This document shows, piece after piece, positions 11,252 to 55,522 of a DNA stretch of 64,000 nucleotides. The position numbers and the translations under genes were made by a program. The notes below the pieces were generated by a model. That model was not told the DNA's origin. It saw nothing but the letters and a program-made list of their open reading frames with translations, and ran no database searches. The first letter of the stretch is position 1. Every line of letters starts with the position of its first letter. Source of the stretch: an uncultured Methanomassiliicoccales archaeon (GTDB lineage: Archaea > Thermoplasmatota > Thermoplasmata > Methanomassiliicoccales > Methanomethylophilaceae); the NCBI GenBank assembly GCA_949298875.1, contig CASFYI010000033.1, positions 33,908-97,907 on the forward strand, given 5' to 3'.

Positions 11252-12421
11252 TCGGTACCTGTGCAACGGGTCCTTGCGCCAGCACAGGGACGCCGCCTCG
11301 GAGGCCTCCGCCTCCGCAGTGGCCCCCAGGCATCTGAGGGCCTTCGCCTGCACCGACAGGATCTCGTCCAGACGGAACAGGCAGCCGGTCCTGCGCATCT
11401 CGCCCCTGCATCTGCGGAGATAGGTCAGGGCCTCCTCGTACCTCCCGTTGGCGACCATGCAGAGCCCGAGCGCGGCCGCCGTGTCCACATCGCCGACGTA
11501 GGCGTCCAGCGCCTCGTCGAGGGCGGATGCCGTCTCCCCCTCGGCCAGCATTATCTCCGAGCGCAGTGCGTCGCCGGAGGTCCCGAGGTCGTTGCGCGAG
11601 GATTCCAGCTGCGACATCGCGCTCCTGGTCTCCCCCAGGCGAAGGCTCATCCTGGCCGATGTGAGGCACAGCTCCGGGTCGGAGAACTCGTCCGCCAGCA
11701 CCGATACGATGTCGCGGGTTTCCGGGTCGGGGAAGTCCATCAGCATGAACCTCTGGGAGGACGCCAGCCGCGCCGCCTCCCTCTTGCGGCCGGACCTGTA
11801 GAGATGGTACAGCCTCTCCTTCGGATCGCACCTCCTGTCCATGCACCAGTCCGCTGCCGCGCTGTGCCAGCTCCTCAGGCTCTCGACGTCCGCCCTCTGC
11901 AGGTACCATCTGCGGGTCTCCGGTTTGATCGCCAGATATCCGCGGAAGTCGAACGGCACGAGCTGGGACGGCGGGGACCTGAAGTCCCGGCGGCTGACCG
12001 GCACGCGGAGGACAAGGAGGCATCCCAGCTCAGCCCTCTCCTCCGGAGGGAGCGACCAGAACGCGGAAGAGCTGCAGTAGTTGATGTTGTACGGTACGAG
12101 GAGGTCGTCCTCCGTGATCCCCTGGGCCTCCATCGTGCGTCTGAGCTCCTCGCAGGTCTCCCTGCCGAGAGGCGTGATGAAGTAGATCTTCCTCGCACCG
12201 CCGCGGTTCTGGCCGATGATGCGCGACTTCCCGGCGTAGATCTTCCCCTCCTGCTCCAGCCTGGCGGTTATGAGGGAGGCGTGCGACCTGGAGATCCCCA
12301 GGGCCTCTGCCACGCCCGTCTGGGTCATCTCCCTGGGGGCATCGATCTCTATCGCCGGGGACACGTGCCTGTAGCGGTACAGGTGCAGGAGCGCGCGTTC
12401 GGCGAGCGTGAATTTGTTCAT
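11252..12421 (-). CDS. Winged-helix regulator with TPR-like C-terminal region, ends at CGA
   Basis: Putative transcriptional regulator of 389 residues. A MarR-like winged helix occupies about residues 8-95 (recognition helix near VAEALGISRSHASLI). The rest is helical with TPR-like spacing. With the standard code there is no stop where the protein should end and the frame would run 771 bases through pheS antisense to 10481. The first in-frame CGA in the gene, at 11254-11252, directly abuts the pheS TGA (TGATCG), so I end it there. A TATA-like tttataaa about 25 bases upstream of ATG 12421 indicates a leaderless mRNA. Confidence 0.75.
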
Positions 12422-12530
12422 GCACCGGACCCCTTCTCCCTGTTTATAAACGGTCCAAATACATTCCACACCAGTAGAAATTAAGAGCTTAGAGGGGAAG
12501 CGCTTATACGGGGGCCGCCATCGGAGTCGC
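12422..12530. promoter_or_regulatory. Divergent promoter region
   Basis: Short AT-rich region between two divergent genes. A TATA-like tttataaa at about 12444-12452 serves the leftward regulator and cttatac at about 12504-12510 serves dtdA. Each lies about 25 bases from its ATG, so both messages should be leaderless. Confidence 0.55.
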
Positions 12531-13364
12531 ATGTCCAGGCTCATCGTATGCAGCGAGGCGGATCTCCCGTCCGTCAACATGAGGGCTTCCCTCCTGTCCC
12601 AGGGCGGATGGGAGGACATGGGGTCCTCCGAGGGGGTGTCCTACATGCGCAGGGAGGACGACGTGATGATGAGCATAGCGGACATGCACATCAGGCACGA
12701 GGACCTGGATCTGGAGGCCGCGAGGTTCGGGGTGGATCCGGATTACGTGGTCGTCATGTCGAGGCATTCTTCCAAGAGCGGACGCCCGGCGCTAACCGCC
12801 CATCCGATCGGCAACTACCACGAGGCCGACTTCGGCGGGAGGGCGGAGACGCTGGTGAGATCGGCTCCGGCAGCGATGACCGATGCCGTCAGGAGGATCC
12901 ACGCGCTGAACTCCGACCCGTCCGTCCAGACATGCTTCGAGGTCACGCACCACGGTCCGTGGCTTGGGAAGCCGACGTTCTACATCGAGATCGGAAGCGA
13001 CGAGACCCACTGGGGGGACAAGCATCTCGCTGAGGTGCTGGCACATGTCATCGCCGATCTGGAGCCGCACGATGAGTACCGCAGCCTCGTGGGGATCGGA
13101 GGGGGACACTACGCTCCCAGGTTCACCGAGGCAGCCCTGTCCAGCAGGGTGAACTTCGGTCACATGATCCCGAACTACCAGCTAGAGGGCAGGGGCGACG
13201 AGGACATAGCCAGGATGATAGGGGACGCCTGCGAGGCGACGGCCACGGACTCGGTCTACATCCACCGCAAGTCCATGAAGGGGCCCGAGGAGCATCGCAT
13301 CGCGGACATAGCGGCGTCGCTGGGATACGAATGCGTGAAGTCGAAGGACTTCGAGCCCCTCCGA
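12531..13364 (+). CDS. dtdA: D-aminoacyl-tRNA deacylase (DtdA/GEK1 family), ends at CGA
   Basis: Removes D-amino acids from mischarged tRNAs; 277 residues when ended at CGA, close to the usual archaeal DtdA length. Family motifs are the HSSKSG segment followed by LTAHPIGN, then VTHHGPWL, and the IGGGHYAPRFTE block. The standard code would continue 174 bases to 13538 through pyrH antisense. The only CGA before that point is codon 278 at 13362-13364, two bases before the convergent pyrH stop. Sits among synthetase and termination genes. Confidence 0.85.
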
Positions 13365-13366
13365 TC

Positions 13367-14050
13367 TCAGTTGTGGGAATCCACGAAGGTCCCGTCGAAC
13401 GGCTGTCCGAGGATGGCCTTCCTGAGCTCCTCGACGTTCCTGCCGTCAACCATCGAAATATCTATGCGGGACTCCCTGGCTATCTGCACCCCGAGGGGGT
13501 CGAAGACGCTGGACGCGGAGGCGTCGTGCTCCTTGTAGACGAGCTCGCCGAGGCGCTCGATGGTCATCCTGGGTATCTTCTCCGCGTCGGGATCCTTGCG
13601 GGGGTCTGCGGTGTACACGGCATCGACGGCAGTGGCGTTGACCACGCGGTCCGCCCCCATCTCGCGTGCGACCATCATGGCGACGGCGTCGGTGGTGTGG
13701 CCGGGTTCGGTGCCTCCCATGACGACTATCCTTCCCGGCTCGGAGGCCCTGGCGGTCTCCGCGGCGGTCTCCGGCACGCGCTCCGGCATGTCGCCGAGGG
13801 CCACCCCGAGGAGCTGGGCGTTGATCCTGGTGGCGGCGATGCCCATGATGTCGAGCTGATAGGTGTCCCCTCCGAGCTCGCGGCCGGTGGTCGCGTAGTA
13901 GCGGGCGGTGCGCCCTCCGCCGCACACGACTGCCAGCTGGACCTCGTCCTTGACGGATGAGAGCATGCCGGCCAGCCTGGAGATGTACTCGGAATCGTTG
14001 TTACCGGGGATCAGGACCGATCCGCCGACGGAGACCACAACCTTGTCCAT
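13367..14050 (-). CDS. pyrH: UMP kinase
   Basis: Archaeal-type uridylate kinase, 227 residues, amino-acid-kinase fold. The N-terminal GGSVL phosphate loop is at residues 8-12, then CGGGRTARYY, and an NATAVDAVYTADP segment that binds nucleotide. It converts UMP to UDP for pyrimidine synthesis. It is divergent from prf1 and convergent with dtdA. Confidence 0.93.
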   Translation of the reverse strand: MDKVVVSVGGSVLIPGNNDSEYISRLAGMLSSVKDEVQLAVVCGGGRTARYYATTGRELGGDTYQLDIMGIAATRINAQLLGVALGDMPERVPETAAETARASEPGRIVVMGGTEPGHTTDAVAMMVAREMGADRVVNATAVDAVYTADPRKDPDAEKIPRMTIERLGELVYKEHDASASSVFDPLGVQIARESRIDISMVDGRNVEELRKAILGQPFDGTFVDSHN

Positions 14051-14125
14051 GGGATATACCGGTCCGCTATCCCCGACCCCGACTAATAACTTGCTGGTCC
14101 AGCGCGGTTTCGCGCGGATGCGCGC

Positions 14126-14190
14126 GTATTAAGGGAGCAAAGGTTAATAGGCTGACCCATTTGACACCAGAAACCCGAAGGGTGATTCCC
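14126..14190 (+). promoter_or_regulatory. prf1 promoter and leader
   Basis: A TATA-like gtattaag at about 14126-14133 precedes a leader of roughly 35-40 bases. GGTGAT lies four bases before the prf1 ATG, a good Shine-Dalgarno site. Unlike many leaderless genes here, the release factor gene thus has a structured start. Confidence 0.5.
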
Positions 14191-15423
14191 ATGGCAGACA
14201 AGAACTCCGAGGACAGGGCGAAGTACGACTTCAAGAAGGACATGCAGGAGATCCAGAACTACAGGGGCAGGAGCACGGAGCTCATCTCCGTCTACGTCCC
14301 CAAGACCAAGCAGATCTCCGACGTCATGGCCTACCTGAGGAACGAGCAGTCCCAGGCGTCCAACATCAAGTCCAAGACCACGATGAAGAACGTCCAGAGC
14401 GCGATCGATTCGATAGCCGCTCGACTCAAAACCTACAAGTCACCGCCGGAGAACGGCGTCGTCATCTTCTGCGGAGAGGTTCCCAGGGCGGGCGACCAGA
14501 CCAAGATGGTCCAGTACGTCATCAACCCCCCGGAGCCGATCACGGCGTTCCTGTACAGGTGCGACTCCACCTTCTTCACCGAGCCGCTGGAGTCCATGCT
14601 CCTGGACAAGAAATGCTATGGTCTGATCACCATCGACAGGTCCGAGGCCACCCTGGGCATACTGTCGGGGAGCAGGATCCAGGTGCTGAAGCACTTCGAT
14701 TCGCTCGTCCCGAGCAAGCACCACCAGGGAGGTCAGTCGTCCGTCCGTTTCGAGAGGCTGATCGAGATCGCGGCCCACGAGTTCTTCAAGAAGGTGGCCG
14801 ACAACGCGACCGAGGTCTTCCTCAACCGCCCGGAGCTCCTGGGCATCCTGATAGGCGGGCCCGGCGCGACGAAGGAGTTCTTCGTCAAGGAAGAGTACCT
14901 CCACCACGAGCTGAGGAAGAAGGTCGTCAGCCCGCTGGTCGATACCGGTTACACGGACGAATCCGGCCTGAGGGAGCTGGTCCAGAATGCGCAGGGGATC
15001 ATCACGGACATGCAGCTCACCCAGGAGAAGGTGTACATGCAGAGGCTCTTCACCGAGATCCGCAAGGCGGACGGGGGCCTCTCGTGCTACGGAGAGGACG
15101 AGGTCCGCAGCGCCCTGGACATGGGCGCGGTGGACATGCTCCTCCTGTCGGATTCCCTCAAGAAGCGCAGGATCACCCTCGAGTGCCCCAACGGGCACAT
15201 CCACGAGAAGACGGTGGCCGACGCGGACCAGAAGTTCCAGTGCCCCGAGTGCGGGCAGTCCGCCACCGTCACGAAGGACGAGGACCTGATCGACGACTTC
15301 TTCAACAGGGCGGATGCGTACAACACCCGCCTGCAGCTGATCTCGGGCGATTCCGAGGAGGGGGACATGCTCCTGAAGGCGTTCGGAGGCGTGGCAGCCC
15401 TTCTGAGGTACAGGCCCAACTGA
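14191..15423 (+). CDS. prf1: Peptide chain release factor aRF1
   Basis: Recognises stop codons and releases the peptide; 410 residues, normal aRF1 length. NIKS is at residues 58-61, a YxCxxxF motif at Y122-F128 and GGQ at 180-182; a C-terminal CxxC zinc element is also present (CPECG). The loop that usually reads GRGTE in archaeal aRF1 (from memory) reads GRSTE here at residues 26-30. Codon 78, a conserved Arg after NIKS, is CGA (14422-14424): the only CGA inside any gene of the window, while ten other genes appear to stop at CGA. The protein must be completed past it, so decoding there is either normal Arg or regulated readthrough. Confidence 0.96.
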   Translation: MADKNSEDRAKYDFKKDMQEIQNYRGRSTELISVYVPKTKQISDVMAYLRNEQSQASNIKSKTTMKNVQSAIDSIAARLKTYKSPPENGVVIFCGEVPRAGDQTKMVQYVINPPEPITAFLYRCDSTFFTEPLESMLLDKKCYGLITIDRSEATLGILSGSRIQVLKHFDSLVPSKHHQGGQSSVRFERLIEIAAHEFFKKVADNATEVFLNRPELLGILIGGPGATKEFFVKEEYLHHELRKKVVSPLVDTGYTDESGLRELVQNAQGIITDMQLTQEKVYMQRLFTEIRKADGGLSCYGEDEVRSALDMGAVDMLLLSDSLKKRRITLECPNGHIHEKTVADADQKFQCPECGQSATVTKDEDLIDDFFNRADAYNTRLQLISGDSEEGDMLLKAFGGVAALLRYRPN

Positions 15424-15433
15424 GGTGTTCACA

Positions 15434-26063: not shown

Positions 26064-27926
26064 ATGGACGATCCATCCCTTGCTGAGATCATGGACGAGG
26101 CGGCGGCGCTCGAGAGGCGGATCTCGGAGTTGCCGGCCGGATACATCTCGAGGAAGACGATCAACGGGAAGGTCCGGTTCTACCGCCAGTGGCACGAGGG
26201 TGGCAAGACCAGGAGCGTCTACGTCAGGGAGTCCGAACTGGAGGAGACGGAGCGCCTGATCACCGAGAGGAGGGAGTGCGCCTCCCGTCTGAACCTCCTG
26301 AGGAAGAGGATCGCCAAGGCGGAACGGATGGACTCCAACGGCGGGTTCCACAACACCGTGAGGCGCGGGGCGGATCTGATCCTCTGGGCGGAGGGGACCG
26401 AGGGATGGCGCAGACGCCAGCAGTGCTCCGATCTGGACGCGTACCTCCGCTCCGACAGCGAGAGGGTGTGCGTGCTGTGCGGTCTCCGGCGCACCGGCAA
26501 GACCACCATGATACGCCAGGCCATCGCCGGACTGGATGCCGGGGATCAGGCTCGCTCAGCCTACATTCTGGTGTCGGAGAGGAGCAGCATGGCGGAACTG
26601 GGCTCGGACATCCGCAGGCTGCGGGAGGACGGTGTCAGATACCTCTTCGTCGACGAGGTCACGCTGCTCAGCGACTTCATAGGGGGATCCGGGCTGTTCT
26701 CCCGCATCCTGGTGCCCGACGGCATGAGGGTAGTGCTCACCGGGACCGATTCGCTGTCGTTCGTCTTCGCCGAGGAGGACGCCCTCTATGATGCGGTCAC
26801 CGAGATGCGCACGACGTACATCCCGTACGGGGAGCACAGCCGTCTGCTCGGCACGGATGACATCGACGTCTACCTGAGGTCCGGCGGGATGCTCAGCTCC
26901 GGGCAGCTCAATCTGGAGGACGGACGCATCGAGCCCGACGGTCTCGGGGTCGGCCCGCTCGGGAGCATGGAGGGCTATCTGAACCGGTCGGTCGCCCTCA
27001 ACATCCAGAATACCCTGAGGAACGCGGATGCGGGTTCGTATCTCATGGCCTTTCAGGACCTGTACCAGGCGGGGGAGCTGACGAACGTGATAAACCGCGT
27101 GGTGGAGGATATCAACCACAGGTTCCTCCTGGACGTGGTCGATCGCGATTACAGGTCGGCCAATCTCGAATCGGCCGCCGGCAACCTCAGGGAGGCAGGG
27201 GAGGACCTGCTAGACGATGTCGATGCGGACGCGGTCCTGGCCGCCCTGAAGAGGAGGCTGGACATCCTGGACAGGGACGAGCGTACCGTGGATGTGACGC
27301 AGGGCCAGCTCGGCAGGATAAGGCGGTATCTCTCCGATCTGGATCTCATCGACGACTACGTCATAGAGGATTCTGACACAGGCCGCATGCTAGGCACAGC
27401 GATGATGCAGCCCGCCCTCAGGTACGCGCAGGTCACCGCGTTGCTGGAGTCCCTGGAATCGGACAGGGCGTTTATGGAGGCCGCCGGACCGCGTCGGGAT
27501 GCGGTCCGCACGGCGGTCGAGAACACCGTCCTGGGCCGCATGCTCGAGGAGGTCGTCATACTCGAGACACAGAGGTCCCTTGTGGGAGGTGCCGAGGTCT
27601 TCAAGCTCTGCGTCGGGAGGAGGGAGGTCGACATGGTCGTCCGCGACAGGGAATCAGGTGGATGCCTCCTCTTCGAGATCAAGCACGGCGCCGTCCGCAA
27701 CCCCCGCCAGTACAGGCATCTGACGGATGCCGAGGTGTCCTCGTACGTGGAGAGGGTCCACGGCCCCGTGGTCGGAAGGACCGTCCTCTACAGGGGAGAG
27801 GATGCGGAGGAGGACGGCGTCCGCTACATGAACGTGGAATCATATCTGAAGGGTCTCCCGGCCTCCGTGGGGGGACTGTTCCCGGGTGGTCTGGATCCCG
27901 GGAATGAGGCGACCGACAACTGCCGA
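26064..27926 (+). CDS. AAA-family ATPase (AAA_14/DUF4143-like) with DUF6788-like N-terminus, ends at CGA
   Basis: A 620-residue ATP-binding protein. The N-terminus (about 12-55: ELPAGYISRKTINGK then a YRQW segment) resembles a DUF6788-type module. P-loop GLRRTGKTT is at residues 140-148 and the Walker B is near 195-203 (YLFVDEVTLL). The C-terminal part resembles the DUF4143 nuclease-like domain (VDMVVRDRES, LLFEIKHG). CGA at 27924-27926 is its first; a second follows seven codons later. The standard-code end would be TAG at 28004, unusual if TAG is a sense codon here. Such ATPases are common accessory genes in gut archaea. Confidence 0.82.
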
Positions 27927-33060: not shown

Positions 33061-33510
33061 TCGCGCCTGGTAGAATCCAGGACGGGTCTCGTGGACGAAA
33101 CCCCGGTCCAGCATGGCGGAGAGCATCCTCTCCGCCCTCCTGGGCTCGTACCCCTCGACATCCTCCAGGGTGAACTCCCCCTTGAGGGCGGTGAGTCCCT
33201 CCGAGAGGACCTCCATCTTCTCGTCGAGGTCCGAGGCATGCTCGTAGCGGTAAGCGAGGGTCGACTCCGGATCGGATTCCCCGATCCTCCTCCTTCTCTC
33301 CCTCAGGTCCGCCTGGGTCGGCAGGAACTCGTCCGCGCCTATGGCCCTGGACAGCGCGGCGCGGACCTCCGACTGGCTCTCCGATGTGAAGATGAACCCG
33401 TTCCTGCCGGCGCGCTCCGAATGCCCGCAGTACGGGCATGTGGTGACGGAGTCGTCCGTCTCGACGATCCTGGGGCGGCGGCAGAGGCCGCACTGGGTCA
33501 GTCCGTACAT
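33061..33510 (-). CDS. Zinc-ribbon protein (DUF1922-like), ends at CGA
   Basis: A 149-residue protein. An N-terminal zinc ribbon (CGLC at about 7-10 and CPYC near 25-28) is followed by a helical basic/acidic region. There is no standard stop for 3.1 kb (to 30355). The first CGA, at 33063-33061, comes right after GFYQA and abuts the convergent TGA as TGATCG. It starts one base after the PAC2 gene stop on the same strand, so both are one transcript. Confidence 0.72.
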
Positions 33511-34295: not shown

Positions 34296-35567
34296 ATGAG
34301 CGACCGCATAACCATGGCCAGGACGGCGGGGGGCATACCCGTCGTGGCAGAGCGCATCCCCGGGAGCCGGAGCGCCGGATACATGATCGGAGTTGCCACG
34401 GGCTCCAGGGACGAGACCGAGGACATATTCGGGCTGTCGCATCTCCTGGAGCACACGGTGTTCCGCGAGACGAAGACCCGCGACTCGTACCAGATGGCCA
34501 AGGAGATGGAGGGCGCCGGAGGGGAGCTCAACGCGTTCACCGGCCGCGAGATGACCGCGTTCTACGGCATCACCATCAGCGAGACCAGGGGGACGGCCAT
34601 GGAGATGGTCGGGGACATAGTCGCCAATCCGCTCATCAACGAGAAGGACACGGAACTCGAGAAGAAGATCGTACTCCAGGAGCTGAGCATGATCGAGAGC
34701 GAGCCGGAGACCCGCATCCACGACCTGTTCGAGAGCATGCTCTGGAGGGGGCATCCCCTGTCCCAGGACGAGGGAGGGGACAAGGAGATCGTCGCCCGCC
34801 TGACCTCCGCGGACCTCAGGGCCTACTACGAGGAGAAGTACCTCATCCCCAACCTGGCCGTCTACGCGGCGGGCGATGTGGACCTCGACGAGACGGTCGC
34901 CTGGGCCGAGTCCACCCTGGACGGTATGTCCGGGGGGAGGGCGAACGCGAGGACTGAGCCCCCGATGCCGAAGGCGGAGTTCAGATGCGAGAAGGGTGAC
35001 TCCGACCACCTGCAGGTCGCCATGGGTTTCCCCTCCTACGGGGCGTCCCACCCGGACCGCTCCGCGCTGACGATGCTCTCCGCCGTCCTCGGAAGCGGGA
35101 CCAGCTCCAGGCTGTTCCAGTCCGTGAGGGAGCAGAAGGCGCTCGTCTACTCTGTGTACACGACGGTGAGCCAGGAGAGCGACGCGAGCTCCATGGTGGC
35201 GTACATGTCCTGCACCGACGGCAACGCGTCCGAGGCCATGTCCACGACCTCTGCGGAGTTCGGGAGGCTGCTCAGGGACGGTCTCGAGGAGGGCGAGCTG
35301 GAGCGCGCCAAGCGCCTCGTGAAGGGCGCGAACGTGAGGGCGATGGAGTCCACGGAGCACAGGCTCTACAGGCTCGGCGTCAACCACATGCTCAACGGGT
35401 CCACAGAGAGCCTCGAGGAGCGTCTCGACAAGATCGACGCGGTCACCGAGGAGGACGTCATGCGCGTGGCGAGGGACATCCTCCGCCCCGAGAGGATGAA
35501 TGTGATGGTCCTCGGGAAGGCCGGACGCGCCGTCAGGAAGACGGAGATCTCCGACCTCGGTTTCTGA
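34296..35567 (+). CDS. M16-family zinc peptidase
   Basis: Pitrilysin-like peptidase of 423 residues. The inverted zinc motif HLLEH is at residues 49-53, with the downstream Glu in the ELNAFTGREMTAFYG region. Two M16 halves are present, as in bacterial/archaeal single-chain processing peptidases. ATG 34296 is preceded by GGGAAGGG; a TATA-like gatattaa is about 30 bases upstream. Its 3' end overlaps the convergent protease gene by 11 bases if that ends at CGA. Confidence 0.88.
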   Translation: MSDRITMARTAGGIPVVAERIPGSRSAGYMIGVATGSRDETEDIFGLSHLLEHTVFRETKTRDSYQMAKEMEGAGGELNAFTGREMTAFYGITISETRGTAMEMVGDIVANPLINEKDTELEKKIVLQELSMIESEPETRIHDLFESMLWRGHPLSQDEGGDKEIVARLTSADLRAYYEEKYLIPNLAVYAAGDVDLDETVAWAESTLDGMSGGRANARTEPPMPKAEFRCEKGDSDHLQVAMGFPSYGASHPDRSALTMLSAVLGSGTSSRLFQSVREQKALVYSVYTTVSQESDASSMVAYMSCTDGNASEAMSTTSAEFGRLLRDGLEEGELERAKRLVKGANVRAMESTEHRLYRLGVNHMLNGSTESLEERLDKIDAVTEEDVMRVARDILRPERMNVMVLGKAGRAVRKTEISDLGF

Positions 35568-36033
35568 CCGATTCCATCAGGTGGAGGACCGCGGCCTTGG
35601 CGCTGTCCACGGCCGCCTCCACCTCCGGGGTCATCGTCTCCGTGACGGTCTTGATGTCCTGCACCTCGACGGCGACGAAGGATATCGTCTCGGGCATGAT
35701 CTCCGGATCCATCTTGCGGCCGATCTTTATGGCCGTGGGGAGGTTGACGTCGTGCGTCGCGGCATCCGCGATCACCTCGTCGAAGTCGCTCTCCTTGAAG
35801 AGCAGGACGGTGCCTGGCCCGTACTCGCCCGTCTGGATGGCGTCCACGACGATCGCATGGGAGTAGCCGTGGATCACGGGCAGTATGTCCAGTCCGCCGA
35901 TGGCCTCCTGGAAGCAGTCCACGTCGTCCATGCCGAGGGCGTCTATCGCCTCCGACACGCGGAGACCGACCGCGTCGTCGCACATGATTGGGCTTCCGAG
36001 TCCGATGACAGCTATCCTTCCGTTGAGGGCCAT
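35557..36033 (-). CDS. Hydrogenase maturation protease (M52/HycI-like), ends at CGA
   Basis: Cleaves the C-terminal tail of a [NiFe]-hydrogenase large subunit; 158 residues, normal for the family. N-terminal GLGSPIMCDDAVG at about 11-23 holds the first acidic nickel-sensing residue; VVDAIQTGEYGPG follows. The first CGA (35559-35557) comes after MESVRN. The standard stop would be eight codons on, deeper in the M16 gene. No hydrogenase genes are in the window, so it acts in trans. Confidence 0.8.
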
Positions 36034-36123
36034 TGACGCCGCATGGGCGTCCATGTCTTCAGTTTGACGTTCGCCGATGCGTCATTCGACACCGTTTTAC
36101 CCTGGAAGGTAATACGGGATGCC

Positions 36124-39851: not shown

Positions 39852-41039
39852 ATGAGGCTCATCATCTACACCGGCAAGGGCGGCGTCGGAAAGACGTCGA
39901 CCTCGGCCGCCACCGCTTTCCGCCTCGCAGAGCTGGGTTACAGGACGATCCTGATGAGCACGGATTCGGCCCACTCCCTCGGCGACTCCCTCGACATGAA
40001 GCTGGGGAACTCGATCACGCATGTGAGGGAGAACCTCGACGTCCTCGAGATCGACATCATCTACGAGATGCGCAACAAGTGGAGCGACATCCAGAACTAC
40101 GTCTCGGCGTTCATGCTCTCCCAGGGCATGGGCGAGATATCCGCGGAGGAGATGGCCATCCTGCCCGGCATGGAGATGATCTCCGCGCTGTTCTACGTCA
40201 ACCAGTTCGACGAGCAGGGGACCTACGACGTGGTCGTCATGGACACCGCCCCCACCGGGGAGACGCTGAGGCTGATGAGCTTCCCCGACGTGACCAACTG
40301 GTATCTCGACCGCGGGTTCCCGGTGATCCGCAGGCTCATGAAGATCGCCAAGGCCACCGTCGGCAAGATCATGGACATGCCCCTGCCGTCCGACGAGGTG
40401 ATGGAGAGCATCGAGGACATCAAGGACAACATGTCCCGCGTCAAGGTCATCCTCGAGGACCCGTCCCGCACCACCGTCCGCCTCGTGGTCAATCCGGAGA
40501 AGATGGTCATCCGCGAGACCATGCGCGCCTACACCTACCTGAGCCTCTACAACAAGAACGTCGAAGCGCTGATCGTCAACCGCATCCTGCCCCCGGAGGC
40601 GTCCGAGTCGGAGTTCCTGAGGGAGAGGTTCGCCGAGCAGGAGGAGAACATGGCGCTGATCCACAGCGCGTTCGACCCCATGGTCATCAAGGAGTGCCCC
40701 ATGATGCGCACCGAGCTCCGCGGGGAGGAGAAGCTCAGGGAGATGGCGCGCCTAATCTACGGCGACGGCGATCCCGCCACGGTCTACTCCGAGGCCAGCC
40801 CCATGAGGTTCGTGACCTCCGGGGACCACGACATCGTCGAGATCCGCATGCCCTTCGTGGACTCCAGGGAGGTGGAGCTGTTCAGGATCGACCGCAGCAC
40901 CCTGATGGTCCATGTCGGGAGCCAGAAGATCAACGTCCAGCTGCCCGACGTCATGATAGATTCGGAGATAGACGGGGCAGAGTTCAAGGGCGATAAGCTC
41001 CTTATCAAGTTCAGGAGGGTCTACAATGACCACAGATGA
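39852..41039 (+). CDS. ArsA/Get3-family ATPase
   Basis: A 395-residue SIMIBI ATPase. The deviant Walker A GKGGVGKTS is at residues 8-16, switch I DSAHSLGDSL near 40-50 and switch II DTAPTGETLRL near 132-142. The CxxC of tail-anchor-targeting Get3 is not obvious. A C-terminal beta-rich hsp20-like domain (from about 315) follows. Likely handles tail-anchored proteins or metalloids. First gene of an operon that runs through pyrC. Confidence 0.87.
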   Translation: MRLIIYTGKGGVGKTSTSAATAFRLAELGYRTILMSTDSAHSLGDSLDMKLGNSITHVRENLDVLEIDIIYEMRNKWSDIQNYVSAFMLSQGMGEISAEEMAILPGMEMISALFYVNQFDEQGTYDVVVMDTAPTGETLRLMSFPDVTNWYLDRGFPVIRRLMKIAKATVGKIMDMPLPSDEVMESIEDIKDNMSRVKVILEDPSRTTVRLVVNPEKMVIRETMRAYTYLSLYNKNVEALIVNRILPPEASESEFLRERFAEQEENMALIHSAFDPMVIKECPMMRTELRGEEKLREMARLIYGDGDPATVYSEASPMRFVTSGDHDIVEIRMPFVDSREVELFRIDRSTLMVHVGSQKINVQLPDVMIDSEIDGAEFKGDKLLIKFRRVYNDHR

Positions 41040-41478
41040 AGAGTTCGAGGCGTTCGTCGCAAACAACAGGGACCTCATAGAGAGGATGATCGAGACGCAG
41101 AAGAGCGCCGCCAGGGAGTTCGTCGATGCCGAGAGGGACGTGGCCAGGCAGGCCTACGGTCACGCCAGGGGATTCGCCGACGAGTCCCGCGCCAGGGCCG
41201 AGGACCTCGCCCGCACGGCCTATTCGGCCTTCACCGACCCGGAGGTGCAGAGGCACTTCGTGAACATGGGCCTGGAGTTCTTCATGGGCATGAGCGCCCT
41301 CATGGAGCGCGCCCCCATGCCGGCTCCCGTCAGGGACGGGTTCCGCAGCACCGAGGCCACCATGAAGGACGCCGCATGCAGGGCCCGCGAGTGTCGCAGG
41401 GAGACCCCCAAGAGGGTCGAGATCGTCTCCGACGACCGCAGGGACTCGGACGGCGTCTTCAAGGGTGTCGGTGAGCGA
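41026..41478 (+). CDS. Hypothetical coiled-coil protein coupled to ArsA-like ATPase, CGA-TGA end
   Basis: A 150-residue charged, helical protein (coiled-coil about 20-75; AERDVARQAYGHARGFADE). I do not recognise it. It starts 14 bases inside the ArsA gene, so the two are coupled. The frame ends GVGE-CGA-TGA: CGA at 41476-41478 is directly followed by TGA at 41479-41481. The AMMECR1 start overlaps this junction. Confidence 0.65.
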
Positions 41479-42074
41479 TGATGCTGCAGGGCGAGGAGGC
41501 CGTCAGACTGGCCAGATCGGCCGTGGAGGCCGAGGCCTCGGGCCGTCCGGCACCGGCGATCCCCGGCACCGGAGCCTTCTCGGACTCCGCAGGGGCGTTC
41601 GTCACCCTGGACACGTTCCCCGCCGGAGAGCTCCGCGGATGCATAGGCATCCCCATGCCCGTGATGCCGCTGGGCCAGGCCATCGTCGAGGCGGCCGGAT
41701 CCGCCTGCAACGATCCGAGGTTCCCCCGTCTGTCCCCCGGGGAGCTCGGCGGTGTGACCGTGGAGGTCACCGTCCTGAGCAGGCCGGAGGCTATCCGCGC
41801 GGACACGCCGGAGGGGATCCTCGAGAGCATCGTCATCGGACGCGACGGGCTGATACTCTCGTTCATGGGCCGCAGGGGACTGTTCCTCCCGCAGGTCCCC
41901 GTGGAGCAGGGCTGGGACAAGGAGGAGTACCTCGACCATCTCTGCATGAAGGCGGGTCTCCCGCCGGGCACATGGAGGCGCGAGGGAGCCAGGATAGAGA
42001 CCTTCACGGGCGAGGCCTGGCGCGAGACCACCCCGCGCGGCGACATCGTCCGGAGGGAGGACATTGGACATCGA
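41478..42074 (+). CDS. AMMECR1-domain protein (AmmeMemoRadiSam protein A), ends at CGA
   Basis: A 198-residue AMMECR1-fold protein, normal length for the family. The signature ELRGCIG is at about residues 52-58 and LRPE-type loops follow. It ends in ...TPRGDIVRR then a few residues. There is no standard stop for another 1.4 kb (to 43466). The first CGA in the frame is 42072-42074, giving an 11-base overlap with pyrC. ATG 41481 is an alternative start. Family members are linked to radical-SAM partners; none is adjacent. Confidence 0.82.
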
Positions 42075-43332
42075 GACCGTGGTGTGCGGCAGGGCCCTCG
42101 TCGACGGGGAGCTCAGGTACACCGAGGTCGGGATCTGCGACGGGAGGATAGTATCCGTCGGGAGCATGGTGCGGGGCGGGGACAGGAGGATCGAGCTGGG
42201 GACCAGCGACGTCATGCTGCCCGGGTTCATCGATCCGCACGTGCATCTCCGCGACCCCGGGATGACCGGGAAGGAGGACTTCGGCACCGGGACGCTCGCA
42301 GCCGTCCACGCGGGGGTGACCTGCGTGTACGACATGCCCAACACCGTGCCGCCCGTCACCGACGTTCGCACGTTCAGGGAGAAGAAGGCGGTCGTGGGCA
42401 GGAAGGCAGTCACCGACTACGGCCTGTTCGCGGCGGTCACCGCCGGCGTCAACGCAGGGATGCTGGCCCCCATGGTCGTGGGGTTCAAGCTGTTCATGGG
42501 ATCGACCACGGGGAACATCCTCCTGGACGACGACGAGGAGATGATCCCGGCGGTAAGGGACGTGCTCGCCACCGGCAGGCGCATGAGCGTCCACGCCGAG
42601 GACGACCATCTGATATCGAAGGGCGAGGAGCGGTGCTGCAGGGACCACCTGAGGAACCGCCCCGCCGAGGCGGAGTGGAAGGCCATATCCAGGCTGGCCG
42701 CGAACTTCCGCGGATCCAACATAAACATCTGCCATCTGACCACGCCCGAGGGTCTGGCCATGGCGAGGGACGCCGGCTTCTCCACCGAATGCACCATGCA
42801 CCACATCACGTTCGACGCCGACCGCAACCCCGGCGCCGAGTACAAGGTGAACCCCCCGCTGAGGGACGCCCGCAACAGGGAGACCCTCCGCGCCCGCTTC
42901 ATGGAGGGAGCGTTCGACATGCTCGGTACCGACCACGCGCCCCATGCGGCCGACGAGAAGGACTGTCCGTTCGCCGAGGCGCCGTCCGGCATACCCGGGG
43001 TGGAGACCGCTGTCCCCATGATGATGGAGATGGTCCGCAGGGGCGAACTACCGCTCTCCGAGGCCGTGAGGATGGGATCGTACAACGCCGGCAGGCTGTT
43101 CGACGTCCCCAAGGGCAGGATAGCCGAGGGCTACGACGCGGACCTGGCGGTCTTCGACCTCAGGAGGTCAGCCCCCATAGAGGTGCCCCGTCTGCACAGC
43201 AGGTGCGGGCACTCCCCCTACGGAGGGTTCCCGGCCGTCTTCCCGAGATGCGTCTGCGTCAGGGGAAGCCTTCAAGTACGGGACGGAGAGTTCTGCGGCG
43301 AACCAATCGGAAGGGACGTCCGTGGACTACGA
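42064..43332 (+). CDS. pyrC: Dihydroorotase, ends at CGA
   Basis: Class I dihydroorotase of 422 residues, the usual length. Zinc site DPHVHLRDPG near residues 58-67; a second His region (VHAEDDH) follows; GTDHAPHA near 296. It starts at TTG 42064 behind GGAGGG. No standard stop until 44514; the first CGA is 43330-43332, giving an 11-base overlap with the next gene, the same geometry as at its 5' end. A second CGA lies two codons on. Confidence 0.88.
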
Positions 43333-48996: not shown

Positions 48997-50361
48997 TCAG
49001 TTCTTGAAGCTGTGGATCGGAGCGGGGATCCTTCCGCCCCTGTTCACGAAGTCGGCGCAGCCGTACCTGTTGACGGGCATGATGCCGGCGTCTCCGAGGA
49101 GGCCACCGAATGCGACGCGGTCGCCGACGGTCTTCCCTATTACGGGGATGATCCTGACCGCGGTGGTCTTCTGGTTGACCATGCCTATGGCCATCTCGTC
49201 CGCGATGATCCCCGCGATGGATGTGGCGGGGACGTCTCCGGGCACGGCGATCATGTCCAGGCCGACGGAGCAGACGCAGGTCATGGCCTCGAGCTTCTCG
49301 AGGGTGAGGGCGCCGATCTCGGCCGCCTCGGCCATCGCGCTGTCCTCGGTGACGGGGATGAACGCCCCGCTGAGTCCTCCGACGTAGGACGATGCCATGA
49401 CGCCGCCCTTCTTGACCTGGTCGTTGAGGATGGCCAGGGCGGCCGTGGTCCCGGGGGCCCCGGCATACTCCATGCCCATCTCGTGGATGATGTCGGCGAT
49501 GCTGTCCCCGACGGCGGGCGTGGGGGCCAGCGAGAGGTCGACGATGCCGAACGGGGTGTCCAGCCTCCTGGAGGCCTCCTTGGCGAACAGCTGACCCACC
49601 CTGGTGACCTTGAACGCGGTCTTCTTGATGGTCTCGCAGAGCTCCTCGAAGCTCTTCCCGCGGACCTTCGTGAGGGCCTCCCTGACGACGCCGGGTCCGC
49701 TGACCCCGACGTTGATCACGTGGTCGGCCTCGGTCACGCCGTGGAACGCCCCGGCCATGAACGGGTTGTCGTCCGGCGGGTTGCAGAACACGACGAGCTT
49801 GGCGCATCCGATGGAGTCCCTGTCCTTCGTGGCCTCCGCGGCGCGGACGACGATGTCGCCCATGAGCCTGACGGCGTCCATGTTGATGCCCGTGCGGGTG
49901 GATCCCAGGCTTATGGACGAGCACACGCGCTCGGTCTTCGCCAGGGCCTCGGGGATGGACTCGATGAGCATCCTGTCCGCGGGGGTCATGCCCTTCTGGA
50001 CGAGGGCGGAGTATCCTCCGATGAAGTTGATGCCGATCTCGTCGGCCGCGGCGTCCAGCGTCTCGGCTATGCGCACGAAGTCGGAGGGCGATCTGCATGC
50101 CGCCCCGCCCACGATGGCGATCGGGGTGACGGACACCCTCTTGTTGATGACCGGTACGCCGAACTCCACGCCGAGCTGGTCTCCGACCTCGACGAGCCTC
50201 CCTGCGAGCCTGACGATCTTGTCGTGGATCTTGGCGCAGAGGGCGTCCAGGTCGGGGTCGATGCAGTCCAGCAGGCTGATGCCCATGGTGATCGTCCTGA
50301 CGTCCAGGTTCTCATGGGAGACCATCTCGTAGGTCTCGAAGACCTCGCTTAGCTCCACCAT
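48997..50361 (-). CDS. PFL family protein (UPF0210)
   Basis: A 454-residue protein of the UPF0210 family, whose fold resembles pyruvate formate-lyase but which lacks the glycyl-radical loop. Segments such as GIPV-like [12 protein letters not shown] (about 72-83) and [15 protein letters not shown] (about 325-340) are typical. Function unestablished; it almost always pairs with the small ACT protein found here just upstream (4-base gap). Confidence 0.9.
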
Positions 50362-50365
50362 GTTC

Positions 50366-50638
50366 TCAGATCCTGTGCATCATCTGGAAGACGTCCTCGT
50401 GCGTGGCCTTGATGATGCAGCCGACCTTCTCGCCGACCCTCTCCAGGCCCTCGTTGAGCTTGTCGAACCCCTGGGTGTATCCCGAGGTGTCGACGATCAG
50501 GATCATGTTGATGTAGTCCTGGACGGTGGTCTGTTTGATGTCGAGGATGTTGATGTCGTTCTCGGCGAAGAAGTTGCAAACTGCGGCGATGATGCCGACG
50601 TGGTCCCTGCCGACCAGGGTCACTATGGTTCTGCTCAT
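50366..50638 (-). CDS. ACT-domain protein (UPF0237)
   Basis: A 90-residue single ACT domain ([23 protein letters not shown] at the start), probably an amino-acid sensor for the UPF0210 partner. ATG 50638 overlaps the cimA stop. Confidence 0.9.
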
Positions 50639-52200
50639 TGTATCTCCTCCTGGCCCTGCAGCATGAGGGCGTATTCCAGGGAATCGATGAGTGCGATTAG
50701 ACTCGCCTCTATCACGTTTTCGGACACGCCCACGGTGGTCCAGCTGTTGACCCCGTCGGTGGTCCTGATCAGCACCCTGACGCTGGCCCTTGTGGCCGAT
50801 TTCTCGTCGAGGACGCGTACCTTGTAGTCTGTGAGCCTGATGTCGCGCAGGCCCGGGAAGAAGCCCTGCAGGGCCTTCCTGAGCGCGTTGTCGAGGGCGT
50901 TGACGGGACCGTTGCCATCCGCGGCGGTGTGCTCCATCACGCCGTCGGCGTCCACGACCTTCACGCTGGCCTCGGAGTCCATGCCGCCCTCGCGGCTGTC
51001 CATGAACACCCTGAAGCCCTCCACGCGGAACCTCTGCACGAGGTCCCCGCGGAGCCTTCTGACGAGGAGCTCGAAGCTGGCGTCCGCCCCCTCGAACTCG
51101 TATCCGCGGGACTCCATCTCCTTGATCATGCGGGTGATCTCCGGGCTGTCCTCGCCCGGCTCGAGGCCGAGCTCCCTCAGCTTCTCGGAGATGCTCGCCC
51201 TCCCGGCCATGTCCGACACCAGGACCCTCCTGGCGTTGCCGACGGATGCCGGGTCGACGTGCTCGTAGGTGCGCGGGTTCTTCACCAGCGCGGAGACGTG
51301 CATCCCTCCCTTGTGGGCGAACGCGCGGTCTCCGGTGAAGGGCATGCCGGGGGAGGGCGACATGTTGGCCACCTCTCCCACGAACTTCGAGAGCCCGGTG
51401 ATGCCGGGTATGTCCGCACCGCCGACGTCCACGCCCATCTTGAGGGCCAGGTCGGGGATGACGGCGCAGAGGTTGGCGTTGCCGCATCTCTCGCCGAGGC
51501 CGTTCACGGTCCCCTGGACCATGGTGCATCCCGCCTCCACGGCGGCGAGCGAGCAGGCGGTGGCCAGGTCGGAGTCGTTGTGGCAGTGGATCCCGACCGG
51601 TATCCCGACGCGGGAGAGGGCGTCCCTGCACCCCTCCGCCACCGTGGAGGGCAGCGATCCGCCGTTGGTGTCGCAGAGGACCACCCACTCGGCTCCGCCC
51701 CTCTCGGCGGCCTCCAGGACCCTCAGGGCGTACTCCCTGTCGGACCTCCAGCCGTCGAAGAAGTGCTCGGCGTCGAACATGACCCTCTTGCCTTTGGATG
51801 CGAGGAAGGCCACGCTGTCCTCCACCATGGCGAGGTTGTCCTCCAGAGAGATCCCGAGGGCCTCCGTGACCTGGAAGTCCCAGGACTTCCCGAAGATGCA
51901 GCACCGCTCGGCGGGGCAGGACGCCAGCGCCTTCAGATTTGCATCATCCTCCGGACGCACGCCGTACCTGCGGGTGCTGCCGAAGGCCGTGAGCGCCGTG
52001 CGCGTCAGGCCCAGGCCGGAGGCGCGGGCGAAGAACTCGTCGTCCCTGGGGTTCGATCCGGGCCATCCGCCCTCCACGAAGTCAGCTCCGAACGAGTCCA
52101 GCCTCCTCAGTATGTCCAGCTTGTCCTCGCAGGAGAACGAGACGCCCTCGCACTGGGCGCCGTCCCTGAGCGTGGTGTCGTAGATGAAAACGCGCCTCAT
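50635..52200 (-). CDS. cimA: (R)-citramalate synthase
   Basis: Condenses pyruvate and acetyl-CoA to citramalate for threonine-independent isoleucine synthesis; 521 residues, the CimA length. The TIM barrel starts [10 protein letters not shown] with later HCHNDSDLA and GNANL motifs. The C-terminal LeuA regulatory domain begins near residue 395. ATG 52200 overlaps the end of hom (ATGA-type). Could be a 2-isopropylmalate/citramalate paralogue; length and TTLRDGAQ(C)EGVSF favour CimA. Confidence 0.88.
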
Positions 52201-53201
52201 CGCCGCCTCGCCCTCTCGTCCATGATGGATATGAGGTCGCTCAGTATCGCCGAGGCTGTCTCGATCCTGCCCGCGCCCCTGCCGGTGACCGTGACGGGTC
52301 CGGCCAGATCGGACAGGATCTGGGCGGTGTTCAGGGTCCCGGAGATGCCGAGGGGGTGCCCCCTGGGCACGAGCCTGGGTCCGACCTCCAGCTTGCTCTC
52401 GGAGACCTCGCCTATGAGCCTTATGACCATGTTGTGGGAGGCGGCCAGGGATATGGCGTCCTCGGTGATCGACGTGATGCCGGTGATCCTCACGTCGTTG
52501 AACGTGACGTCGCGGCCGAACACGGCGTTGGCGAGGATGACGACCTTGCACGCGCTGTCGTACCCCTCGATGTCGTTGGTCGGGTCCGTCTCGGCGTAGC
52601 CCATCTGCTGGGCCTCCTTGAGGACCTGCTCGAACGGCTGTCCGGTGTCCATCTTGCTGAGTATGAAGTTACATGTGCCGTTGAAGATGCCGCGGATGGA
52701 TTCGATCCTCTCCCCGGCCAGGTTGTCGCGGCAGAGGTTGATGATGGGCATGGCGCCGCCGACGGATCCCTCGAAGCGGAGGCTGCATCCGTTGCTCTCG
52801 GCCAGGTCCATGAGGTGGCGGAACTTCAGGGCGAGCGGGCCCTTGTTGACCGTGATGACGTCCTTCCCGTTGCCGAGCGCGTACTCGATGTTCCTGAGTC
52901 CGGCGCCCCCGGTCTTCACGTCGGTGGGGCTGACCTCCACGAGGATGTCGAACTCCACCCCGGAGAGGACCTCGACGGAGTTCTGGTACGTCTCCGTGCC
53001 GACCCTTCCGGTACCCTGTTTGACGGAGACGAGCTCCAGGGGGTCGAACCCGTTCGGGTCGTAGGCGTAGGTCTTGGAATCCATGGTCCCGACGACGGTG
53101 ACAGGCTCCCCGTAGCGGTCGATGAGGAACTGGCGGCGGGCGGCCAGGACCTCGCAGAAGCCCTGCCCGACCGTTCCGAATCCGCAGATGAACACCCTCA
53201 T
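52200..53201 (-). CDS. hom: Homoserine dehydrogenase, ends CGA-TGA
   Basis: NAD(P)-dependent reduction of aspartate semialdehyde to homoserine for threonine and methionine; 333 residues. Rossmann GFGTVGQGF near 7-15; NKGPLAL near 115; catalytic-region [15 protein letters not shown] near 200. The frame ends RARR-CGA-TGA: CGA at 52202-52200, TGA at 52199-52197. It is the only CGA in the gene. ATG 53201 is preferred to GTG 53210. Operon with the ACT protein upstream and cimA downstream. Confidence 0.9.
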
Positions 53202-53202
53202 C

Positions 53203-53694
53203 TCAGACACCCCTCACGTATGTGATTCCGCTGCGGCGGCACTCGTCGTCGAGGAAGCCGTCCAGCCTGTCCAGGTCCTCCTGGCTCTTGGTCTTCACGG
53301 AGAGCATGCCGGTGCGCTTGGAGTAGTCCCCGGTCTTGGACGAATAGCTGACCTCGACCCCGTCGAGGTCCGCTATCGTGGAGGCCTTGTTGATGAGCCT
53401 CTCGATGTACCTCGCATCGATGTCGCCTATCAGCATGTAGTCCATGGTGAAGGTCTCGTAGGCGGTCCCGATCTTTGAGATGATGATGTCCTTGGACTTC
53501 CAGATGGCCTTGAGCCTCTCGAGCTGGTCGTCCTCCGCCTCGAACGTGATGTTGATGCAGATGCGGTGGTTCACGATCCTCTCGCGGTTGTGGACGACTC
53601 CCAGGATGTTCCCGTCCACGACGGATATGGGCTCGAGGGAGCCGACCAGCTGTCCGGGGAGGTCCTTGACGTAGAGCTCAGCGTTCACTATCAT
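53203..53694 (-). CDS. ACT-domain amino-acid-binding regulator
   Basis: A 163-residue protein with an N-terminal ACT domain ([15 protein letters not shown]) and a second alpha/beta half. Likely senses threonine or isoleucine and controls the hom-cimA operon, of which it is the first gene. Confidence 0.78.
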
Positions 53695-53767
53695 GTGCGC
53701 GCACCTATTATGAGGCGGTGATGGGCGGAGCGTATATAGGGGTGAGGGTCGGAAGATTAGAGAGAAG

Positions 53768-53851
53768 CGCCGAGAGGGAGATTTGAACTCCCGAGGGAAA
53801 GTTCCCACGAGCTTTCCAGGCTCGCGCCTTACCGGGCTGGGCCATCTCGGC
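53768..53851 (-). tRNA. tRNA-Ser (GGA)
   Basis: 84 bases with a long variable arm, as expected for Ser. Acceptor GCCGAGA/TCTCGGC, discriminator G, anticodon loop CTGGAAA gives GGA. CCA not encoded. Confidence 0.93.
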
Positions 53852-53880
53852 TTAAGGATTGGGGGAACTCGAACCCCTAA

Positions 53881-54663
53881 TTAAAAGCTTTGCCTGAACC
53901 AGTCTACGTCGGACCTGAAATCCTGCAGATGTCTGCGTGTGGAACGGGCCTTCGCGAGCTCCTCCGTGTCGAAAGTGAAGGTCTCGACCGCTTCGGCGTC
54001 GGCGGGGCAGCGCACGATCTCCCTGCCGAGCGGATCCACGGCGCGGGATGTCCCGGCCATGACGAGGTCGCCTGCGGGGCCCACGTTGTTCACGAACGCG
54101 AGGTATGTCACGTTCTCCAGGGCCCTGGCAGGCAGGATGGTTTCGAAGTACGGCGCGGACGGCGTCGCCGCCGCGGATATGCAGATGTTCACGTCCGCGC
54201 GCCTCAGGGAGCATCCGTGCAGGACCTCGGGGAAGTAGATGTCGTAGCATATGCTGAATCCGAACCTGATGCCGTGGTAGGATCCCATCGACGGCTTCCT
54301 GCCGGCGGCGTACCCGTTCTCGGTGTACACGCCGAACCTGGCGAGGTGGATCTTGTCGTAATACGAGTCGCCGTCGGGGGAGAGGAACGCCAGGCTGTTG
54401 GTCCACCCCTCGGGACCAGGCATGGGGGTGCCCACGGCCACCGCCTTGTCGTACTTGCGGCAGGCGTCCGATATTGTGGTCAGGGCGGCGGAGATGCGCT
54501 CCTCCAGGCCTTCGGGGGACACTCCGTATCCGGTGAGGAAGGACTCTGGGAAGATCAGGACCTGCTCGTCCCGGGATACAATCATGTTGGCCACCGTCTC
54601 TGCGTTCATCTCCGGGGATCCGGTCATGGGACGGATCTGGCACAGTGCGATGTCCACTTGCAT
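53881..54663 (-). CDS. Carbon-nitrogen hydrolase (nitrilase superfamily)
   Basis: A 260-residue amidase. The Glu-Lys-Cys triad is visible: E in FPES near 40, K in YDKIHLARFG near 103 and C in SICYDIYFPE near 139. Substrate unknown; adjacency to divergent nadE suggests amide or ammonia metabolism but does not prove it. It ends in TAA. Confidence 0.87.
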   Translation of the reverse strand: MQVDIALCQIRPMTGSPEMNAETVANMIVSRDEQVLIFPESFLTGYGVSPEGLEERISAALTTISDACRKYDKAVAVGTPMPGPEGWTNSLAFLSPDGDSYYDKIHLARFGVYTENGYAAGRKPSMGSYHGIRFGFSICYDIYFPEVLHGCSLRRADVNICISAAATPSAPYFETILPARALENVTYLAFVNNVGPAGDLVMAGTSRAVDPLGREIVRCPADAEAVETFTFDTEELAKARSTRRHLQDFRSDVDWFRQSF

Positions 54664-54739
54664 AACATCGTATCGTTGCCCTCCCTTTAAATCCCATCGG
54701 GAACAACGTTAAATCCGCAGCACACGATTCCCGGAGGGT

Positions 54740-55522
54740 ATGTCGTCCAAGATCCCGCAGGTCACCAGAGAGGATGCTGATGCCCTCGTATCATTCATCC
54801 GCACCACCGCCGAGCGCACGGGATGCAAGGGAGCGGTGGTCGGTCTCAGCGGAGGTCTGGACTCCGCCACGGTCACCAAGCTGTGCGCGGACGCGCTGGG
54901 TCCCGACAGGGTGCTCAACGTCTTCATGCCCTCCCGCGTGACGCCCGCCGAGGACTACAAGGTCACCTCGGAACTGAGCTCGATGTGGGGTACCGAGTAC
55001 AAGGTGGTCGACATCCAGCCCGCGGTGGACGCCCTGGCGGCAGTCCTGCTGTCCGGGAAGGAGACGCCCCTGGAGAGGGGGAACATCTCCGCCAGATGCA
55101 GGATGATTGTCCTGTACAACATGGCGAAGAAGAGGGACTACCTGGTGTTCGGCACGTCGAACCAGAGCGAGATCATGATGGGATACTTCACGAAGTTCGG
55201 CGACGGCGCATGCGATGTGACCCCGCTCGCCAACCTCTACAAGACCGAGGTCAGGCAGCTGGCCCGGATCATCGGCGTCCCGGAGGACATAATCGCCAAG
55301 CCCCCGTCCGCCGGGCTCTGGGAGGGACAGACCGACGAGTCGGAGATGGGCATCAGGTACGAGGACCTCGACGGCATCCTGTTCGATCTCGAGCGCGACT
55401 GCTCCGACTCGCAGATCGCCGTCGACACGGGTCTCGAACTGTCCGAAATCGCCAGAATCAGGGCTCAGGTGAGGTCCATGGAGCACAAGAGGCTGCCTGC
55501 GATCCGCCCGAGTGACTTCCGA
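54740..55522 (+). CDS. nadE: NAD+ synthetase, ends at CGA
   Basis: Ammonia-dependent NAD synthetase, 260 residues, the normal length. PP-loop SGGLDSAT near 34-41; the GTSNQSE motif near 139; LWEGQTDE near 194. The tail HKRLPAIRPSDF is followed by CGA (55520-55522) and, one codon on, another CGA. The standard-code end would be TAG at 55574-55576, inside tRNA-Glu and past its TATA box, which argues for the CGA end. Confidence 0.92.

Follow-up and report, generated by a model that had tools for sequence, protein, structure and literature searches.

Does the arginine codon CGA terminate translation in a gut archaeon? The question is raised by a 64-kb stretch of DNA (the window; C33:33908-97907) from the draft assembly G000 of a Methanomethylophilaceae archaeon (1.34 Mb, 93 contigs, 79.7% complete), in which CGA stands at the end of ten genes and otherwise occurs in frame only inside the gene of the release factor aRF1. 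G000 was compared with 30 further genomes of the same genus (31 with G000) and with additional members of the family; the closest relative is G020, whose aRF1 is identical. Judged from the sequences, CGA very probably serves this archaeon and its genus as a fourth stop codon.

Ten genes of the window end at CGA

All ten CGA codons that a preliminary description of the window had placed at gene ends were read at their positions. Eight of these genes have no standard stop at the CGA, and the next one follows only 24 to 2706 bases on (counted through that stop). They encode an M52 hydrogenase maturation protease (35557-36054, minus strand, CGA at 35557-35559; 24 bases), the NAD synthase NadE (54740-55522, plus strand, CGA at 55520-55522; 54 bases), an AAA ATPase (26064-27926, plus strand, CGA at 27924-27926; 78 bases), the D-aminoacyl-tRNA deacylase DtdA (12531-13364, plus strand, CGA at 13362-13364; 174 bases), an HTH/TPR regulator (11252-12469, minus strand, CGA at 11252-11254; 771 bases), the dihydroorotase PyrC (42064-43332, plus strand, CGA at 43330-43332; 1182 bases), AMMECR1 (41478-42074, plus strand, CGA at 42072-42074; 1392 bases) and a zinc-ribbon protein with a weak DUF5817 match (33061-33510, minus strand, CGA at 33061-33063, offset 0 to the homologue; 2706 bases). 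Read with the standard code, the extensions do overrun neighbouring genes, as had been claimed for most of them. In the other two, a gene at 41026-41478 (plus strand) and hom for homoserine dehydrogenase (52200-53210, minus strand), CGA (41476-41478 and 52200-52202, respectively) is directly followed by TGA.

In six of the ten proteins the matching profiles (tRNA_deacylase, HycI, AMMECR1, dihydroorotase, NAD synthase and homoserine dehydrogenase) stop 2-18 residues from the CGA. Of the remaining four, the AAA_14 match spans only residues 133-232 of 620, the HTH/TPR regulator and the zinc-ribbon protein stay below the Pfam cut-offs and the 41026 protein has no family match. Regardless of frame, the trinucleotide CGA occurs often in the window (1761 on the plus and 1639 on the minus strand; CGC, 1527), and it is therefore depleted in frame only. 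Gene sets were obtained with a codon-usage gene caller in which CGA carried no weight and was set as a stop. In the window 68 genes were scored, and the 11 that end at CGA are the ten genes described above and a fragment of aRF1 that breaks off at the in-frame CGA. Greedy calling of open frames in which CGA counted as a stop gave 68 frames; CGA ended 15 of them, some being antisense frames.

CGA marks gene ends in several genomes

For G000, the window and 20 further stretches were sampled (414 kb, 31% of the assembly); for many species of the genus the counts of CGA ends cover 20-60 kb. Gene ends were tested against strict orthologues, with references restricted to genes ending at a standard stop. 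Two counts, one based on homologue ends and one on genes without a standard stop, read the target ends without presetting CGA as a stop.

In G000, CGA is the end of 36 of the 191 genes tested; 34 of these ends are no more than 5 codons away from the stop of the homologue, and 14 coincide with it. G020 showed CGA ends in 25 of 180 tested genes (22 within 5 codons), and G028 in 12 of 20, aRF1 included, all within 5 codons and 11 exactly at the homologue's stop. The same was seen in COG_1 (G060), a member of a second clade of the family (32/80, 28 within 5 codons), and in smaller samples of the genus: G001 (3/11, 3 within 5 codons), G025 (4/19, 3 within 5 codons) and G026 (4/16, 3 within 5 codons). 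In 33 of 202 genes of G000 no standard stop lay 15 codons or less from where the homologue ends, and CGA lay within 5 codons of that point in 22 of them and not in 11; the corresponding fractions with CGA were 16/18 in G020, 11/13 in G028, 19/31 in COG_1 and 1/7 in G013. Among codon-scored genes, CGA ends numbered 107 of 436 in G000 (414 kb), 70 of 345 in G020 and 18 of 406 in G013. Gene coverage increased when CGA was treated as a stop, from 0.859 to 0.893 in G000, from 0.856 to 0.875 in G020 and likewise in G013. Among the CGA-ended genes of G000 with a homologue match (n = 32), the distance to the end of the homologue was at most 15 residues in 26 and larger in 5, and the CGA of the last one, aRF1, was interior.

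The pattern proposed for the window holds there, in the sampled rest of the genome, in G020 and in several other species of the genus. As far as sequence comparison can tell, CGA almost certainly acts as a terminator in G000, G020, G028 and COG_1. That CGA is an ordinary rare arginine codon, and the ends are misassemblies or real C-terminal extensions, is hardly credible: the assemblies are indeed drafts and a tRNA-Arg(UCG) gene is present, but the offset-zero pattern recurs across separate assemblies and species, the extensions overrun neighbouring genes and out of frame CGA is by no means rare. Should CGA be a stop, many database proteins of this gut-archaeal family bear false C-terminal tails.

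Pelota frames are open for 777 residues in G000 (C86) and 858 residues in G020 (C1), compared to about 350 in most relatives, and pelota of G020 ends at CGA. A candidate second interior CGA in G020 (L162) was rejected; it is this pelota end, the open frame fusing the next gene, and the two are separate genes in G013.

CGA is nearly absent from gene interiors

The preliminary description had reported no CGA inside any gene except aRF1, with all other arginine codons in use. In G000, 9 raw CGA hits were found in 61,014 aligned codons and only the aRF1 site was convincing, each hit being judged by scoring 25 codons on either side; other arginine codons are in use, CGC and AGG at 22.4 and 36.2 per 1000 codons. 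With the window genes as reference, 10 CGA hits appeared in 87,788 codons, none of them convincing. Across 28 genomes of the genus, 46 raw hits were obtained in 372,567 aligned codons, a total to which one G001 region contributes twice. Of the 46, 36 lay at most 5 codons behind a standard stop or in a frame that, on one side or both, scored negatively or less well than another frame. Seven hits were the aRF1 site, one was unclear (G005 L075) and two, which are taken up below, look truly interior. Since CGA counted as a stop when the reference genes for this count were called, some interior CGA might be concealed; relatives in the same procedure still yielded up to 2.9 CGA per 1000 codons. As a control, nine loci from elsewhere in the family contained 2.03 CGA per 1000 codons, and ten loci of the order 4.25. 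Other relatives use CGA inside genes. A tblastn survey that took every open reading frame of relatives as reference was discarded, as shadow frames dominated it (2989 'CGA' in G000).

The loss of the same codon inside genes would also be expected if mRNA editing turned CGA into UGA, one C/U change away, under a standard code. A frame-blind editor would, however, recode all of the abundant off-frame CGA on both strands of the window, and a frame-sensing one would have to act in translation, so that we consider editing extremely improbable.

The aRF1 gene carries a conserved in-frame CGA

Read through its in-frame CGA, the aRF1 gene (14191-15423, plus strand) scores 544 bits against NCBIfam TIGR03676 (cut-off 234.7) and ends at TGA. 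The CGA, our proposed feedback site (14422-14424, plus strand), is codon 78 from the ATG and codon 81 in P0001 numbering, in the context GCT CGA CTC AAA. The exceptional position of aRF1, already recognized in the window, was confirmed, and conservation can be added: codon 81 is CGA in 26 of the 27 genus sequences covering it and is the sole CGA of their aRF1, which is not noise. The context NCT CGA CTN AAR is found in 24 of 24 full-length, CGA-bearing aRF1 sequences of the genus (clade A), even though GCT and TCT are little used in G000 (3.5 and 1.5 per 1000). The exception is G028, which has GCC CGC CTC AAG at codon 81 and whose aRF1 terminates at CGA. In the second clade of the family (clade B) the same pattern exists with a different in-frame site. 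There, aRF1 contains exactly one CGA, at codon 28, in 11 of 11 sequences (L089, L093, L097, L099, L102, L105, L106, L109, L110, L116 and L124; context TAY CGA GGR/GGC, with 10 GGA and 1 GGC). Silent sites around codon 81 showed no excess of conservation that would indicate RNA structure. We are inclined to think that the in-frame CGA regulates aRF1 by a feedback resembling that of bacterial RF2.

Residue 68 of aRF1 and the first codon position

According to PMC5681627, Lys63 of the NIKS loop of the related eRF1 repels a cytosine at the first base and Arg68 is predicted to hold the loop rigid; in simulations with CAA, CAG and CGA, the exchange R68A left a penalty of 1-2 kcal/mol, instead of ~6, for C at position 1. 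In the window, the NIKS motif (residues 61-64; 14362-14373, plus strand), which has a role in reading codon position 1 according to that paper, is followed by Met68 (14383-14385, plus strand) in place of Arg68. Met68 is present in 26 of 26 sequences of clade A, in 9 of clade B together with 2 Leu, and in 34 of 34 from the rest of the family. None of 16 outgroups of the order has it (Arg 8, Lys 4, Asn 3, Gln 1), and three solved relatives have Arg by alignment. The signal emerged only against the outgroups of the order. Residues near the codon that are specific to the genus were considered as a cause and rejected, since only positions 20, 79, 273, 341 and 383 differ consistently from the rest of the family.

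Further changes were seen in some heavy users of CGA: K63R in G001 and G006, G31S in G000 and G020, and K69N with N70H in G028. Ser31 (14272-14274, plus strand) lies in the GTS loop and is Gly outside G000 and G020. G025 and G026 have none of these changes. Taken together, aRF1 is likely to be the factor that reads CGA, and a leaky first position probably preceded the capture of the codon. CAA is rare in G000 (0.56 per 1000, versus 20.7 for CAG); a release factor tolerating C at position 1 would favour such scarcity, and high G+C may explain it.

As a separate observation on the code of these archaea, a pyrrolysyl-tRNA synthetase (PylS) exceeding the cut-off of its family is present in 27 of the 31 genomes of the genus, and UAG probably also stands for pyrrolysine there.

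The cognate tRNA is altered in the genus

The preliminary description had listed a gene for tRNA-Arg(UCG) among the findings that would refute CGA as a stop. Such a gene is encoded in G000 (C24:31886), alongside tRNA-Arg genes with the anticodons UCU, CCU, GCG and CCG; a second 'CCG' candidate (L143) was judged spurious. The tRNA-Arg(UCG) of the genus is unusual, having lost either the 31-39 pair or U33 in every sequence that was read. In 15 genomes, with 12 distinct sequences, the 31-39 pair of the anticodon stem is lost (A39 opposite A31 or C31). In G007 and G022 this pair is not missing, and C33 replaces U33. Six more genomes hold genes resembling the G007 type at 91-97%, known as matches only, and three are known from a pattern match. 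Outside the genus, the 31-39 pair was present in 10 of 10 sequences. We suspect that the broken pair weakens the tRNA, which is a guess. Searches of the 31 genomes did not find the gene in G028, G012, G010, G015 and G016. G028 has 43 tRNA matches, a number equal to that of the single-contig genomes G007 and G013; the 42 whose sequence was read include no UCG anticodon, and the remaining one is taken as tRNA-Glu by its pattern.

An altered tRNA in the genus and its absence from the G028 matches are also what a starved or unassigned CGA would predict. Ribosomes would then stall at a codon that is poorly read, and rescue of the pelota type, not aRF1, would end the protein, so that such ends are tolerated. 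This is rather improbable. CGA ends many tested genes in four genomes, including pyrC, nadE and hom, where stalling should be costly; COG_1 has CGA at its gene ends with a tRNA-Arg(UCG) of normal appearance; and aRF1 needs its own in-frame CGA to be read, so the codon must be decodable.

Observations that weigh against CGA as a captured stop

Several findings speak against this interpretation or against parts of it. CGA ends are few or lacking in many species of the genus (G013, 3 of 157 tested genes, all 3 within 5 codons of the homologue's stop; G019, 0/40; G003, 0/42). The two convincing interior CGA codons outside aRF1 (G008 L068 and G003 L249) both lie in the HTH/TPR regulator, in well-scoring frames; they may reflect a pseudogene, a second recoded gene or ordinary sense use. 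The regulator gene with the interior CGA (L068, L249) adjoins aRF1. The tRNA-Arg(UCG) gene was found in 26 of 31 genomes of the genus, and that of COG_1 looks normal even though CGA is a common end there. In G012, G010 and G015 the in-frame CGA of aRF1 is kept and the tRNA was not found; its lack in these three (assemblies 76-88%) and in G028 may be an assembly gap. Met68 is present in relatives using CGA as sense, and for this reason is not sufficient.

Other points concern the feedback site itself. Among the 129 invariant columns of aRF1 whose residue has four or six codons, 11 are equally uniform in codon choice, so the uniformity of codon 81 by itself proves little; its oddity is that the codon is otherwise absent from the rest of the genome. 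C follows the CGA stop in 6 of 36 cases in G000 and 8 of 25 in G020, so that +4 C is not avoided, and the codon-28 CGA of clade B is followed by G, unlike that of clade A with C. For both reasons, an argument from a leaky context is weak. These data leave room for CGA being a stop everywhere except in aRF1, where it would be a relic that is hard to mutate, has no regulatory function and is decoded as Arg by tRNA-Arg(UCG) in every case. Arginine columns 53 and 165 (AGG) and 189 (CGT) of aRF1 are just as invariant, and the lack of +4 C avoidance fits as well. The step from CGA to CGC, CGT or CGG is silent and single, however, and G028 has taken it, so the codon is not frozen; the site also lies at codon 81 in clade A and at codon 28 in clade B, each time as the only CGA of the gene. 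We regard a relic as an unlikely alternative.

CGA in the second clade and the history of the change

Clades A and B rest on a single aRF1 tree, and the node deciding between one and two origins has a support of 0.05. Relatives placed between the clades use CGA as sense, and 4 interior CGA hits in 6721 codons were obtained for L076, which the tree places as sister to clade B with a support of 1.00. CGA may have been captured twice or once with reversals. By codon score, other members of clade B are less clear than COG_1: G064 (1R26) has CGA ends in 15 of 107 genes, and G061 (4/88) and G062 (4/78) hardly have any. G064 also contains 10 interior CGA codons, eight of them in two L124 genes that look frame-shifted by eye. 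L098, L092 and L096 have 0, 1 and 2 interior CGA hits, no CGA ends among 19, 20 and 11 genes, and a single CGA in aRF1 (codon 28 or 81); they may represent an early stage of the change. Species at all stages exist: those with CGA as sense, those that nearly lack it, those with CGA as a common stop and G028, which has no cognate tRNA as far as its assembly shows.

In the window, a gene resembling cytidylate kinase (5123-5665, plus strand) is followed by a gene at 5643-6653 (plus strand). Seven outgroup orthologues of the former have CGA 1-5 codons before the end; in these, L093, L097 and L099 among such cases, the frame stays open for ~330 codons into the following gene. Their CGA may be a stop shared with clade B, or the frames may be gene fusions.

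A possible course of events begins with the loss of Arg68, which would make the NIKS loop less rigid, so that C at codon position 1 is tolerated. With UGA as the main stop, CGA, which shares its second and third bases, would become readable by aRF1. The in-frame CGA could then serve as a sensor, at which aRF1 and the altered tRNA-Arg(UCG) would compete: plentiful aRF1 would stop at CGA, and when aRF1 is scarce the tRNA would read the codon as Arg and full-length aRF1 would be made. A leaky aRF1 would have come first, then a useful sensor, then the purging of CGA elsewhere, and finally its capture as a terminator in at least two clades. The tRNA would survive mainly to read a single codon of aRF1. 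In G028, sensor CGA and, judged by the assembly, tRNA are both gone and CGA is used most (12 of 20 tested genes); this co-loss fits the feedback model, as a single case.

The chain as a whole, in which CGA is a stop, is read by the single aRF1, arose through residue 68 and is tied to feedback, is probable in our view; its residue-68 and feedback parts we infer. For the wider proposal, that a cellular lineage has at least twice made a fourth stop out of a sense codon through loss of a residue rejecting C at position 1, that the CGA of aRF1 is a sensor with a dedicated tRNA and that G028 completed the change by dropping both, we see a little better than an even chance.

Comparison with known systems

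AGR codons serve as stops in vertebrate mitochondria. Further mitochondrial cases are UCA/UCG in sphaeroplealean green algae and UUR in Pycnococcus (PMC6821328). In the mitochondrial cases, as here, a sense codon leaves the genes and then marks their ends, and release-factor changes accompany the process (PMC6821328). In G000 the codon is nearly absent from gene interiors with other arginine codons in use, the genus adding two convincing interior cases and one unclear one, and it stands at the homologue's end without another stop. However, mitochondria have few genes and the bacterial-type mtRF1a, whereas here cellular archaeal genomes and an eRF1-type factor are concerned. The cognate tRNA was lost in the AGR and UCA cases (PMC4695839) and is kept here in most species, 26 of 31 genomes retaining the gene.

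Searches of an open-access literature library yielded no report of a code with CGA as stop, in keeping with what had been said of the window, and none of a sense-to-stop change in a cellular genome, such changes being known from mitochondria. Within that literature, CGA would be the first such change found for a cell's own genome. If true, it would be a new direction of code change for cellular genomes, and Met68, Arg63 and Ser31 would offer a natural test of first-base reading by eRF1-type factors.

The bacterial reassignments found with Codetta (AGG, CGA and CGG; PMC8629427) are similar in that arginine codons, CGA included, change their meaning, but they lead from sense to sense. Codetta is unable to detect sense-to-stop changes (PMC9825746), and a CGA case would therefore stay uninferred in that largest screen. 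Transfer RNAs with a 4-bp anticodon stem read near-cognate stops (PMC13092985). The tRNA-Arg(UCG) of 15 genomes of the genus resembles them in its broken 31-39 pair, which leaves four pairs; G007 and G022 do not share this. In the published case the short stem widens the decoding of a mismatched tRNA, whereas here the anticodon matches CGA.

The closest parallel to the site in aRF1 is bacterial RF2, whose in-frame UGA, at codon 26 in E. coli, is nearly always followed by C (PMC5009743). In both systems a release factor has, early in its own gene, a stop that it can read itself, provided that CGA is a stop (26 of 27 sequences of the genus and 11 of 11 of clade B; codon 78 or 28), and in clade A the next codon likewise starts with C. 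In RF2, a +1 frameshift at CUU provides the escape. The aRF1 gene has no such site before its CGA, and its frame continues unchanged to the end; escape must therefore be readthrough as Arg, at a sensor codon that, unlike the UGA of RF2, is a former sense codon.

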